The translations under genes were made by a program, and so were the position numbers. From Pseudorhizobium pelagicum (GTDB lineage Bacteria; Pseudomonadota; Alphaproteobacteria; Rhizobiales; Rhizobiaceae), in contig JOKI01000016.1 in NCBI GenBank assembly GCA_000722615.1, forward strand, positions 42,627 to 106,626: a stretch of 64,000 bases of DNA, written 5' to 3'. Positions 8,291 through 19,162 of the stretch are shown piece after piece. Under the pieces are notes generated by a model, which did not search any database, had not been told where the DNA came from, and was given only the letters and a program-made list of their open reading frames with translations. Position 1 is the stretch's first letter; each line of letters starts with the position of its first letter.

Positions 8291-9520
8291 GTGGATACGG
8301 CTCCATTGAGCTTGCATGTCCCAGAGCCGGCCGTGCGGCCGGGCGGACAGCCTGATTTTTCCAATGTTACCATCGCCAAGGCCGGCGCCGTGACGCGTCC
8401 AGCGGTGGACGCAGAAGCGCAGGATATTCGCGATCTCGCCTATTCCATCATCCGGGTTCTCAACCGGGAGGGTGAGGCGGTCGGCCCGTGGGCGGGCCTG
8501 CTTCCCGACCAGGATCTGAGGGAGGGCTTGCGTCACATGATGACGCTGCGCGCCTTCGACGCGCGCATGCTGATGGCGCAGCGACAGGGCAAGACGTCGT
8601 TCTACATGCAGCACCTTGGGGAAGAAGCGGTCAGTTGCGCATTTCGAAAGGCGCTGGCCAAGGGGGACATGAATTTCCCGACCTATCGACAGGCCGGCCT
8701 GTTGATCGCCGACGATTATCCGATGGTAGAGATGATGAACCAGATCTACTCCAACGAGAGCGACCCTTTGCGCGGCCGGCAGCTGCCGATCATGTATTCG
8801 TCGAAGGAGCACGGCTTCTTTACGATTTCCGGCAATCTCGCCACCCAGTATGTCCAGGCGGTCGGCTGGGCCATGGCTTCGGCGATCAAGAATGACACCC
8901 GCATCGCCGCTGCCTGGATCGGCGATGGCTCCACGGCCGAGTCGGATTTTCATTCGGCGCTGGTGTTTGCCTCCACGTACCGGGCGCCGGTGATCCTCAA
9001 CGTAGTCAACAACCAGTGGGCGATTTCGACGTTCCAGGGAATTGCGCGCGGTGGCTCGGGCACCTTCGCCGCTCGCGGGCTGGGCTTTGGCATTCCCGCG
9101 CTGCGGGTTGACGGCAATGATTACCTGGCGGTCCATGCCGTCGCCTGCTGGGCAGCGGAACGGGCGCGGCGCAATCTCGGGCCGACATTGATCGAATATG
9201 TCACCTATCGCGTCGGCGCCCATTCCACCTCCGACGATCCGAGTGCCTACAGGCCAAAGGCCGAGTCAGAGGCATGGCCGCTGGGCGACCCGGTGCTGAG
9301 GCTCAAGAAGCATCTGATCCTGCGGGGGCTGTGGTCTGAGGCACGTCATGTGCAGGCTGAGGCGGAAATCATGGACGATGTCATCGCCGCCCAGCGCAAG
9401 GCGGAGGAACATGGAACGATGCATGCCGGCGGCAGACCGTCGGTGCGCGACATCTTCGAGGGCGTTTACGCGCAGATGCCACCACACCTACGTCGGCAAC
9501 GACAGAAGGCTGGTTATTGA
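8291..9520 (+). CDS. bkdA1: Branched-chain 2-oxoacid dehydrogenase E1 alpha
   Basis: Thiamine-diphosphate E1 alpha subunit of the complex that oxidatively decarboxylates 2-oxoisovalerate, 2-oxoisocaproate and 2-oxo-3-methylvalerate to acyl-CoAs. The TPP-binding stretch [14 protein letters not shown] and the later [10 protein letters not shown] are clear, as is the phosphorylation-loop region [16 protein letters not shown]; 409 residues matches BkdA1. The frame also allows GTG 8285, but GTG 8291 is better placed (AGGA 7 nt upstream) and gives the family start (M)[12 protein letters not shown]. First gene of a nine-gene operon; the next ATG directly follows its stop codon. Confidence 0.95.
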
Positions 9521-10534
9521 ATGGCCAGAATGACGATGATCGAAGCGATCCGCAGCGCCATGGACATTGCCATGGGTCGCGATGACGACGTGGTCGTTTT
9601 CGGGGAGGATGTGGGTTATTTCGGCGGCGTCTTCCGCTGCACACAGGGGCTGCAGGCAAAGTATGGCAAGACGCGCTGCTTTGATACGCCCATCAGCGAG
9701 TCGGGCATCGTCGGCGCCGCGATCGGCATGGCTGCCTATGGGCTAAGACCCTGTGTCGAGATCCAGTTTGCCGACTACATGTACCCCGCCTACGATCAGC
9801 TGACGCAGGAAGCCGCCCGTATCCGCTATCGATCCAATGGTGACTTCACCTGCCCGATCGTGGTGCGCATGCCAACCGGTGGTGGCATTTTTGGCGGTCA
9901 GACCCATAGCCAGAGCCCCGAGGCGCTGTTTACCCACGTCTGCGGCCTGAAGGTCGTCGTGCCCTCCAACCCCTACGACGCCAAGGGGCTGCTCATTGCG
10001 GCGATTGAAGACCCTGATCCGGTGATCTTCCTGGAGCCAAAGCGGCTCTACAACGGACCTTTCGACGGCCATCACGAGCGCCCGGTGACGGCATGGTCGA
10101 AACATGATCTCGGTGAGGTCCCGGATGGCTACTACGCCATCCCGATCGGCAAGGCGGACGTTCGCCGCCCCGGCTCGGCCGCGACAGTGGTCGCCTATGG
10201 CACGATGGTTCACGTGGCCCTGGCGGCTGTAGCCGACACGGGCATCGACGCTGAAGTCATCGACCTTCGCAGCCTCATGCCGCTCGATCTCGACGCCATC
10301 GTCACATCGGTTTCCAAGACGGGGCGCTGCGTTGTCGTGCACGAGGCAACGCTGACCTCGGGATTTGGCGCAGAGATCGCGGCCCTGGTGCAGGAATTCT
10401 GTTTCTACCATCTGGAAGCGCCGGTCATGCGCGTCGCCGGATGGGACACGCCCTACCCGCATGCCCAGGAGTGGGACTATTTTCCTGGTCCGGCGCGGGT
10501 CGGTCGTGCGCTGATCGAGGTTCTGGAGGCCTGA
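9521..10534 (+). CDS. bkdA2: Branched-chain 2-oxoacid dehydrogenase E1 beta
   Basis: The 337-residue E1 beta subunit pairs with BkdA1 to form the alpha2beta2 decarboxylase. Visible features are MTMIEAIRSAMDIAM at the start, VVFGEDVGYFGGVFR (TPP-site glutamate region), the PIVVRMPTGGG turn and the C-terminal transketolase domain with VVHEATLTSGFGAEIAAL. The ATG abuts the bkdA1 TGA with no gap, indicating translational coupling. It is followed two bases later by bkdB. Confidence 0.95.
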   Translation: MARMTMIEAIRSAMDIAMGRDDDVVVFGEDVGYFGGVFRCTQGLQAKYGKTRCFDTPISESGIVGAAIGMAAYGLRPCVEIQFADYMYPAYDQLTQEAARIRYRSNGDFTCPIVVRMPTGGGIFGGQTHSQSPEALFTHVCGLKVVVPSNPYDAKGLLIAAIEDPDPVIFLEPKRLYNGPFDGHHERPVTAWSKHDLGEVPDGYYAIPIGKADVRRPGSAATVVAYGTMVHVALAAVADTGIDAEVIDLRSLMPLDLDAIVTSVSKTGRCVVVHEATLTSGFGAEIAALVQEFCFYHLEAPVMRVAGWDTPYPHAQEWDYFPGPARVGRALIEVLEA

Positions 10535-10536
10535 GC

Positions 10537-17880: not shown

Positions 17881-18332
17881 TGGCCGGACGCCTTTTCGAG
17901 GACTGGACCGTCGGAGATCGGGTCGTCCACGAGATCCGTCGCACGGTGACGGAAACCGACAACCTGCTCTTCACGACCATGACCCACAACCCGCAGCCTT
18001 TGCATCTCGATGTCGAGGCGGCCAAGGCAAGTGAATTTGGCCAGCTCCTCGTTGTCGGCACGTTCACCTTTTCGCTGATGGTCGGACTTTCCGTCGGCGA
18101 CACCACGCTCGGCACGCTGATCGCCAACCTCGGCTATGACAAACTCGTCATGCCCAGGCCGGTCTTTATCGGCGACACCATGCGTGCCGAAACCGAGGTT
18201 GTCGGTTTGAGGGAAAGCGGGTCAAGGCCAACGGCCGGCATCGTCACCTTCCGCCATGAACTCTTCAACCAGCGCGGCGACATTGCCTGCCAGTGCCTGC
18301 GCACGGCCCTCGTGCACCGGAGGTCACCATGA
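17880..18332 (+). CDS. MaoC-like hot-dog hydratase, predicted 3-methylglutaconyl/itaconyl-CoA hydratase
   Basis: A 150-residue single hot-dog protein with the MaoC hydratase signature in the form MTHNPQPLHLD, followed by FSLMVGLSVGDTTLGTL and the ending FNQRGDIACQCLRTALV. It occupies the place where classical clusters carry a crotonase-type 3-methylglutaconyl-CoA hydratase (LiuC). In M. tuberculosis the equivalent neighbour is the MaoC-type gene Rv2499c next to the CitE-like lyase Rv2498c, so hydration of 3-methylglutaconyl-CoA (and perhaps itaconyl-CoA) is the best inference. ATG 17877 is also possible; 17880 has better spacing from AGGAG. The stop overlaps the next start. Confidence 0.8.
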   Translation: MAGRLFEDWTVGDRVVHEIRRTVTETDNLLFTTMTHNPQPLHLDVEAAKASEFGQLLVVGTFTFSLMVGLSVGDTTLGTLIANLGYDKLVMPRPVFIGDTMRAETEVVGLRESGSRPTAGIVTFRHELFNQRGDIACQCLRTALVHRRSP

Positions 18333-19162
18333 GGCTGCGCTCGCTGCTGTTCGTGCCCGGCGACCGGCCGGAGCGGATGAAGACGGCGCTCCAGCGCGGG
18401 GCCGACGCGTTGATCATCGATCTGGAGGACGCTGTGGCCTTGCAAAGCAAGCCAATGGCGCGGGAGATGACCGCAGCGTTCCTGCGCTCGGCCAAACGCC
18501 AGGCCAAGCTTTTCGTTCGCGTCAATGCGCTCGACAGCGGTCTGCTTGACGGCGATCTCGCGGCGGTTGTCGCCGCAGGACCTGACGCGCTCGTTCTGCC
18601 CAAGGCAGAGGGCGCCGCAAGCGTTCAGGCCTTGTCAGCAAGAGCGCCCGGCATCCCGATCTTGCCGATCGCGACGGAAACGCCGTCGGCGATCTTCGAG
18701 ATTGGCAGCTACCGCGCTGTCGGCAACCTGATCCTCGGTCTCACCTGGGGGGCGGAGGACCTTCCCGCTGCCATCGGCGCCAGGAGTGCGCGCGAGCCGG
18801 ATGGGCGTCTCACGCCGCCCTACGAGATGGTGCGATCGCTGACGCTGTTTGCAGCCCATGCCGCCGGCGTCGAAGCCATCGACACAATCTATCCGGCCTT
18901 TGGCGATCTGAAAGGGGCGTCAGCCTATGCGGCACGCGCCCGAAGAGACGGCTTCACCGGCATGATGGCGGTGCATCCGACACAGGTTTGCGTCATCAAT
19001 GAAGCCTTCACTGCCACAGCAGAGGAACTGGCCGAAGCACAGGCCATCGTCAACGCATTCACAGCCAATCCAGATCAGGGAGCGCTTGGCTTCCACGGTC
19101 GCATGATCGATGCGCCGCACCTCAGGCAAGCCAAACGGCTGCTTCAGTCCGTCGAAAAATGA
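18329..19162 (+). CDS. CitE-like beta-hydroxyacyl-CoA lyase, predicted HMG-CoA/citramalyl-CoA lyase
   Basis: A 277-residue TIM-barrel lyase of the HpcH/HpaI-CitE family: RSLLFVPGDRPERM at the start, metal-binding IDLEDAV, FVRVNALDSG, IATETPSAIF, WGAEDLPAAIGA and VHPTQVCVINEAF. The start is ATG 18329 (GGAGG 5 nt upstream), overlapping the maoC stop by 4 bases. No DRE-TIM HMG-CoA lyase is present in the cluster. Rv2498c of M. tuberculosis, a homolog in the same gene context, was reported to cleave both citramalyl-CoA and HMG-CoA, so this gene probably ends the leucine pathway with acetyl-CoA and acetoacetate. Last gene of the operon. Confidence 0.82.
   Translation: MRLRSLLFVPGDRPERMKTALQRGADALIIDLEDAVALQSKPMAREMTAAFLRSAKRQAKLFVRVNALDSGLLDGDLAAVVAAGPDALVLPKAEGAASVQALSARAPGIPILPIATETPSAIFEIGSYRAVGNLILGLTWGAEDLPAAIGARSAREPDGRLTPPYEMVRSLTLFAAHAAGVEAIDTIYPAFGDLKGASAYAARARRDGFTGMMAVHPTQVCVINEAFTATAEELAEAQAIVNAFTANPDQGALGFHGRMIDAPHLRQAKRLLQSVEK

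Follow-up and report, generated by a model that had tools for sequence, protein, structure and literature searches.

A leucine operon of Pseudorhizobium pelagicum with MaoC and CitE-like proteins in the positions of LiuC and LiuE

The leucine locus of Mycobacterium tuberculosis (Rv2495c–Rv2504c) brings together genes for a branched-chain 2-oxoacid dehydrogenase (Bkd), an acyl-CoA dehydrogenase (ACAD), methylcrotonyl-CoA carboxylase (MCC), a hydratase (Rv2499c) and the CitE-like protein Rv2498c (PMC6689899, PMC4347857 and PMC3920632). In PMC6689899, Rv2498c was measured to cleave (R)-3-hydroxy-3-methylglutaryl-CoA (HMG-CoA) and (S)-citramalyl-CoA, PA0883 is named (R)-specific and PA2011 (S)-specific, and the (R)-HMG-CoA route for leucine is termed unprecedented. 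The ict-ich-ccl cluster for itaconate, with its methylsuccinate genes, likewise uses a hydratase with a MaoC domain together with a CitE-like lyase (PMC12290011 and PMC9875883). Here, we describe an operon that combines such a pair with leucine genes in an alphaproteobacterium. It lies at positions 8285–19162 of a 64,000-nucleotide stretch of Pseudorhizobium pelagicum DNA (contig JOKI01000016.1, positions 42,627–106,626), which we refer to as the window. No report of MaoC-CitE in alphaproteobacterial leucine clusters was found among the papers listed by searches of the open-licence PMC literature.

The window operon resembles the mycobacterial locus in its gene content, and its maoC lies directly upstream of citE, as in the actinobacterial plasmid leucine loci examined (Tsukamurella and Microbacterium), which hold MCC, ACAD, maoC and citE together. 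It differs in that its ivd encodes a different acyl-CoA dehydrogenase (34–37% identity to those of four actinobacterial leucine loci), and in the regulator, which is of the AraC type beside the window operon and the TetR regulator BkaR in mycobacteria; accD1-citE of M. smegmatis is under the control of BkaR (PMC3920632). In addition, the window genome carries a separate itaconate-type cluster. The published itaconate clusters, unlike the window operon, include a CoA-transferase and an MmgE/PrpD gene, and their MaoC protein is longer (PMC12290011 and PMC9875883). The classical liu cluster of a congener (genome G559, locus L272) has the same ivd-mccB-mccA core in the same order, but there it is followed by liuE-liuC, where the window has maoC-citE.

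Gene content and proposed function of the operon

The operon consists of nine open frames, collinear on the + strand, in the order bkdA1-bkdA2-bkdB-lpdV-ivd-mccB-mccA-maoC-citE. The proteins were assigned from sequence, by Pfam and by their closest solved structures (PDB matches). All nine leucine genes listed in the first-pass annotation were found:

8285–9520, + strand: bkdA1, branched-chain 2-oxoacid dehydrogenase E1 alpha (start at 8285 or 8291; best PDB match 2-oxoisovalerate dehydrogenase, 561 bits)
9521–10534, + strand: bkdA2, E1 beta (Pfam)
10537–11805, + strand: bkdB, E2 (Pfam; most likely start, picked ahead of the lipoyl domain, in a longer frame from 10441)
11809–13203, + strand: lpdV, dihydrolipoyl dehydrogenase (TIGR01350, 489.9 bits, cut-off 408.8)
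13248–14411, + strand: ivd (P0005), isovaleryl-CoA dehydrogenase (PDB match, 540 bits; start chosen, frame opens at 13200)
14411–16006, + strand: mccB (P0006), MCC beta (PDB: M. tuberculosis AccD1, 761 bits; P. aeruginosa MCC beta, 753 bits)
16021–17880, + strand: mccA (P0007), MCC alpha, biotin carboxylase and carrier (PDB MCC alpha, 566 bits)
17877–18332, + strand: maoC (P0008), proposed 3-methylglutaconyl-CoA hydratase in the LiuC slot (PF01575; N38-x4-H43 motif)
18329–19162, + strand: citE-like lyase gene (P0009), proposed HMG-CoA lyase in the LiuE slot (PF03328; residues R76, E129 and D156)

The mccA/maoC and maoC/citE junctions are both 4-base overlaps. Pfam and NCBIfam scans of the operon proteins recognised neither a crotonase nor a member of an HMG-CoA lyase family, i.e., no liuC or liuE beside the mcc genes, and P0009 had no match to NF004283, the DRE-TIM HMG-CoA lyase model, at E ≤ 0.001. 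The earlier proposal that MaoC and CitE occupy the slot of LiuC and LiuE is thus borne out for the operon. P0008 matched PF01575 with 80.6 bits (gathering cut-off 27), and its N38 and H43 are conserved in all 72 MaoC proteins compared, the actinobacterial ones included. P0009 belongs to the HpcH/HpaI-CitE superfamily (PF03328) by both Pfam gathering score and fold. With residues counted from the GTG at 18293, its R76, E129 and D156 align with Arg64, Glu112 and Asp138 of Rv2498c, which bind magnesium and substrate, and the WGAED loop is also common to both.

On this sequence evidence, we consider it quite probable that the operon encodes a complete leucine route in which the MaoC protein acts as 3-methylglutaconyl-CoA hydratase and the CitE-like protein as HMG-CoA lyase, a unit that replaces LiuC and LiuE. 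From gene content, gene order, family membership and active-site residues we infer the following substrates. Bkd would convert the branched-chain 2-oxoacid to isovaleryl-CoA, which Ivd would oxidise, and MccAB would then carboxylate 3-methylcrotonyl-CoA. The MaoC protein is predicted to add water to 3-methylglutaconyl-CoA to give HMG-CoA, and the CitE-like protein to split this into acetoacetate and acetyl-CoA. Acetoacetate could then be handled by an acetoacetyl-CoA synthetase on contig C1 of the genome (TIGR01217, 1038.5 bits, cut-off 520.9) or by the product of a CoA-transferase gene pair on C3 (PF01144). Our confidence in the pathway role of the pair is high for the linked operon.

Distribution of the MaoC–CitE pair

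The neighbourhoods of 80 related CitE loci were compared, these being the best 80 of a pattern-based scan with one genome per species, mainly Rhizobiaceae and Sphingomonadales. Linkage, defined as mccB within 9 kb of citE, was found in 48 of the 80; maoC lies directly upstream of citE in every one of these 48, and in 53 loci overall. At thresholds of ≥36% identity and ≥120 bits for a LiuC-like gene and >150 bits for an HMG-CoA-lyase-like gene, neither occurs in any of the 80 stretches; a few of them have weaker crotonase matches (25–33%). The order ivd-mccB-mccA-maoC-citE recurs in other genera and is therefore not due to chance. The mcc-linked clusters examined hold either MaoC and CitE or LiuC and LiuE. 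When the genomes of 28 of the 48 linked loci, of unstated completeness, were searched for HMG-CoA lyase, 16 were without a match at E ≤ 1e-50; 11 were over the cut-off and two reached ≥400 bits.

The alternation of the two pairs is most apparent in the family of the window organism, for which 17 genomes were listed and 16 searched, G383 (1.5 Mb) being left out. This CitE type is present in 11 of the 17. Seven of these 11 have no HMG-CoA lyase match, and in the other four the lyase is never on the mccB contig. G547 has the gene order of the window, while G358, G376 and G621 have ivd-mccB-mccA without liuC or liuE and carry the MaoC-CitE pair elsewhere. Among the six genomes without this CitE type, four have MCC, and all four have an HMG-CoA lyase of 445–456 bits; in three of them (the congener G559, G408 and G677) the order is ivd-mccB-mccA-liuE-liuC. 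In G599 the lyase lies on another contig than mccB, and G350 (1890 contigs) has neither MCC nor an HMG-CoA lyase. The slot after mccA is thus filled by liuE-liuC or by maoC-citE depending on the species. The operon is a known kind of pathway in a new alphaproteobacterial variant, which recurs in the Rhizobiaceae and the Sphingomonadales and, inside a single family, is interchangeable with liuE-liuC.

The congener G559 also has a second HMG-CoA lyase match (L255, G559:C29:257712-258563) with two internal stop codons, the other copy being the one beside mccB.

In a class-wide sample of 289 alphaproteobacteria, the CitE matches fell into two tiers, ≥183 bits and ≤138 bits. The upper tier, which is the type of P0009, was present in 42 genomes. 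An MCC-type match (E ≤ 1.1e-180) occurred in all 42 of these, in 88 of 137 genomes with lower-tier CitE only (p 2e-7) and in 18 of 110 without CitE; in two of the 42 (G246 and G277) the match is among the weakest and could represent a different carboxylase. Among the 148 MCC genomes, HMG-CoA lyase (E ≤ 1e-50) was absent from 12 of 42 with upper-tier CitE versus 7 of 106 without (p 7.5e-4), and with one genome per family from 7 of 16 versus 4 of 69 (p 5e-4); these p values serve only as guides, because the genomes are not independent of one another and no control for their size was applied. Of the 43 places of ≥183 bits outside the window, 40 had their neighbourhoods fetched, and maoC adjoins citE in 37 of these. 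Only three (L054–L056) are linked to an mccB of 74–76% identity, and L060, L062 and L090 carry carboxylase genes of lower identity (43–52%). Seven genomes (G009, G242, G004, G057, G070, G143 and G229) have no HMG-CoA lyase match, an ivd-mccB-mccA stretch without liuC or liuE, and a MaoC-CitE pair elsewhere, suggesting that unlinked pairs do the same job. We hold with moderate confidence that they share the leucine role. Across the phylum, 50 of 398 sampled genomes gave a match at E ≤ 1e-45, of which 49 belong to the same class and one (G437) does not.

Relation to Rv2498c and to itaconate clusters

The first-pass annotation had proposed that the window organism uses the same alternative ending as the mycobacteria, with a lyase of the Rv2498c clade. 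Gene content and catalytic residues agree with the first part of this, but the lyase itself lies on a different branch of the CitE family. In a careful tree of 49 of the 89 CitE rows, which did not include L060, L090 or the lone CitE rows, five actinobacterial proteins share a clade of their own with Rv2498c (support 100/99), and this clade joins the lyases of Ccl type and of haloarchaea (98/94). A separate clade (91/91) holds the alphaproteobacterial proteins, with the mcc-linked ones nested within it (99/93). A single clade of all leucine-linked rows was rejected (log-likelihood 124.7 lower, p 3e-59). By its sequence, P0009 is placed outside the Rv2498c clade. Linkage to mcc changed at least twice on the tree. 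In a quick CitE tree the leucine-linked label, with L060 and L090 counted as linked, needs 13 changes, six of them forced by starred branches. In the corresponding quick MaoC tree, the actinobacterial MaoC proteins have a long branch and fall, with weak support, within the alphaproteobacterial proteins that are not linked.

That P0009 is a true ortholog of Rv2498c, a bifunctional lyase serving both leucine and itaconate, would agree with the catalytic residues and WGAED motif in common, with the maoC adjoining citE in actinobacterial leucine loci and with the PDB search, in which Rv2498c structures were the best matches of the single P0009 sequence (116 bits). Furthermore, a clade of all alphaproteobacterial and actinobacterial proteins excluding Ccl was not rejected (p 0.136). 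We nevertheless consider this unlikely: the grouping of Rv2498c with the actinobacterial and then the Ccl-type and haloarchaeal proteins, apart from the alphaproteobacterial clade, and the rejection of one leucine-linked clade led us to set orthology aside, and P0009 is only 35% identical to Rv2498c and 33% to P. aeruginosa Ccl. The itaconate half of the proposal is further opposed by a separate ict/ich/ccl-like cluster in the same genome.

This cluster lies on contig C20 (L018 9755–15365; G000:C20:40000-59900) and comprises genes for a CitE-like protein, a longer MaoC protein, MmgE/PrpD, a CaiB CoA-transferase and an acyl-CoA dehydrogenase. It resembles P. aeruginosa PA0878–PA0883; compared with the plasmid copy of the P. 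aeruginosa itaconate genes, the identities are 65% for the acyl-CoA dehydrogenase, 50% for ict, 49% for ich, 39% for ccl and 31% for MmgE/PrpD. The same gene set is that of the published itaconate/methylsuccinate cluster, as given in PMC12290011 and PMC9875883, so that itaconate breakdown, if present, is better assigned to C20. The C20 assignment rests on gene content, as neither the C20 CitE (157.3 bits) nor P0009 (145.5 bits) passes the RipC/Ccl equivalog cut-off of 375 bits in NCBIfam. C20 is where the ict homolog lies; the ten open reading frames (ORFs) scanned at the operon (P0001–P0010) include no recognisable CoA-transferase. Itaconate was accordingly set aside as the main role of the operon, and the suggestion that the leucine locus may degrade it is not needed; our confidence in any such role is low.

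A further alternative is that the MaoC and CitE proteins act on another methyl-branched dicarboxyl-CoA, such as citramalyl-CoA or methylmalyl-CoA, for example in an itaconate/mesaconate branch travelling with the leucine genes. P0008 shows weak similarity to the beta-methylmalyl-CoA dehydratase 8hgn, and the two proteins have some similarity to the RipB/Ich and RipC/Ccl models, respectively. However, the RipB/Ich score of the MaoC protein, at 121.3 of 340 bits, falls far short of its cut-off, and so does that of P0009 for RipC/Ccl. With no CoA-transferase in the operon, and an MCC-type gene accompanying this CitE type throughout the class sample, we regard this alternative as very unlikely.

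Canonical HMG-CoA lyases and the genes flanking the operon

Several observations weigh against the assignment of HMG-CoA as substrate and against a clean exchange of the two pairs. The predicted structure of P0009 (mean pLDDT, the predicted local distance difference test score, 91.9) is uninformative on substrate, since CLYBL, malyl-CoA lyases, Rv2498c and Ccl all score within ≈1.5 Z units in the structure comparison; judging from the model, the fold cannot separate HMG-CoA, malyl-CoA and citramalyl-CoA lyases. Next to the methyl group of the substrate, Rv2498c has Met133 and Val181 where P0009 has Thr151 and Ile199. The first position is Thr or Ser in 17 of 18 listed alphaproteobacterial rows (Met in L067) and the second is Val in many. 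When a profile of four linked CitE proteins was compared with PDB chains, RipC (176 bits) scored slightly higher than Rv2498c (167 bits). Among the 80 related loci, 27 are without maoC alongside, and in one linked locus, L156, citE is followed immediately by a gene resembling crotonases (32%, 94 bits). In the class sample, 30 of the 42 upper-tier genomes keep some HMG-CoA lyase-family gene, and the seven lyase-less MCC genomes without this CitE type have neither. In at least 10 of the 42 (G041, G066, G168, G169, G186, G203, G260, G265, G266 and G280 among them) a lyase lies within ≈15 kb of mccB. G203 has a full mccB-liuC-mccA-liuE cluster (L226) besides an unlinked MaoC-CitE pair (L071), and G266 has a linked maoC-citE cluster (L056) and a second mccB with an adjoining lyase. 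G121 is mixed: it has mccB-liuC-mccA (L209, G121:C1:1708000-1727900) and lacks a lyase match, and its MaoC-CitE pair (L063) is unlinked. Mutual exclusion of the pair and the liuE cluster is thus not general, and genomes with both cluster types weaken the reading of displacement as a unit.

All 27 maoC-less loci (L116, L117, L119, L122, L126 and 22 others) are Sphingomonadales records, 59–67% identical to P0009, with no mccB within reach, although some of the stretches are short. The ORF starts listed around the lone CitE loci L116 and L119 included no recognised leucine genes. In G121, the MaoC-CitE pair is ≈105 kb from the liuC locus, where liuC sits between mccB and mccA.

The window genome itself (G000) is a 5.13 Mb draft in 62 contigs, with the mccB of the operon as its only MCC beta match at E ≤ 1e-100. 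A crotonase search, with PF00378 alone, gave seven matches. The best of these is 31% identical to the LiuC of the classical cluster L208, 34% to that of G408 and 28% to that of G559, and a shorter piece of another reaches 32% with G559 LiuC. By comparison, the LiuC genes adjacent to mccB in eight loci (L209, L222, L224, L225, L226 and L272–L274) are 38–50% identical to L208 LiuC; a doubtful 31% match lies beside mccB in L215. There was no LiuC ortholog among the seven PF00378 matches. The liuE half of the search had a different outcome: one protein, encoded by an open frame on contig C29, exceeded the NCBIfam HMG-CoA lyase cut-off (449 bits versus 246). This lyase gene follows one for a degradative HMG-CoA reductase (TIGR00532, 432.8 bits, cut-off 259.95) in locus L015 3742–10583 (G000:C29:27000-46900), together with what we take from the translations to be TRAP (tripartite ATP-independent periplasmic) transporter genes and a divergent GntR/MocR-type regulator. 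From its association with the reductase and transporter genes, we read the C29 set as an operon for mevalonate breakdown.

The C29 lyase is, however, 65–69% identical to the lyases of G408, G599, G559 and G677, three of which lie beside mccB, and it may therefore be a relocated LiuE that serves leucine in trans; it could finish leucine degradation if (S)-HMG-CoA were made. The MaoC-CitE pair would then be accessory, for example in clearing mis-hydrated HMG-CoA or a side product. The class genomes in which this CitE type coexists with a lyase near mccB are consistent with such a division of labour. On the other hand, the PF00378 search found no LiuC ortholog in the window genome, and the majority of the linked-cluster genomes searched, like seven of the 11 CitE-positive genomes of the family, have no HMG-CoA lyase match. 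We consider completion in trans quite unlikely.

Crotonase and MaoC hydratases give opposite configurations of the hydroxyl group. This would probably account for the joint swap of hydratase and lyase in the mcc-linked clusters: the MaoC and CitE-type proteins would both use (R)-HMG-CoA, and the crotonase and DRE-TIM lyase (S)-HMG-CoA. By analogy with Rv2498c, P0009 may be (R)-specific for HMG-CoA, which we hold with moderate confidence. Tentatively, and with somewhat more doubt than conviction, we suggest that in the alphaproteobacteria MaoC and CitE displaced LiuC and LiuE as a unit, in linked and unlinked form, because hydratase and lyase must use the same enantiomer of HMG-CoA. The (R)-route would in that case be common rather than a peculiarity of mycobacteria, and the window genome would run an (R)-pool from leucine and an (S)-pool from mevalonate through separate lyases, unmixed. 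A liu cluster that has liuE and no liuC is reported for S. coelicolor (PMC9636800), so the two enzymes are not bound to occur side by side.

If the proposed role of the pair is correct, a route thought peculiar to mycobacteria also occurs in harmless soil and plant bacteria, and two steps of a central pathway have been swapped jointly, even among members of a single genus. The route would then be open to study in strains that are simple to handle, such as Rhizobium johnstonii 3841 (locus L124), whose genome gave no HMG-CoA lyase match, or Sphingobium sp. SYK-6 (L183). A missing LiuE would then be no evidence for a missing leucine pathway, and records labelled merely “CoA ester lyase” or “MaoC family dehydratase”, as in plasmid loci, could be given specific names.

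Two further genes lie upstream of the operon:

5803–6930, − strand: acyl-CoA dehydrogenase ORF, divergent from the operon, a conserved neighbour
7063–8124, + strand: AraC-type regulator, QhpR/GliR-like by NCBIfam, below cut-offs

An ortholog of the AraC gene (>400 bits, 70–74% identity) was found in 18 of the 80 related CitE loci, a count in which loci whose fetched stretch starts at bkdA1 cannot show the gene. The divergent acyl-CoA dehydrogenase gene (80–86% identity) adjoins it in 17 of the 18, and both genes are also present in G547. Their recurrence beside related operons extends the conserved locus to ≈5803–19162. The AraC-type protein is likely to be the regulator of the leucine operon, and the divergent dehydrogenase probably acts on valine or isoleucine intermediates. 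A promoter and terminator scan gave no excess over shuffled sequences.

The next operon in the window (19259–26798, − strand) has an acyl-CoA synthetase-like ORF, with weak acetoacetyl-CoA synthetase matches at 20192–21616. From their translations, other ORFs there are presumably a thiolase, an IclR-like regulator and TRAP transporter genes, the whole resembling a system for uptake and activation of an organic acid. A third CitE-like gene of the window genome, on contig C6 (L017 7195–10757; G000:C6:114000-133900), adjoins ORFs that we take from their translations to be relatives of leuD and of leuB/isocitrate dehydrogenase, possibly a different dicarboxylate route. On the other side of the operon, an ORF at 4457–5563 (− strand) has in its translation what we take to be the HPFxDGNGR motif of Fic-type proteins.

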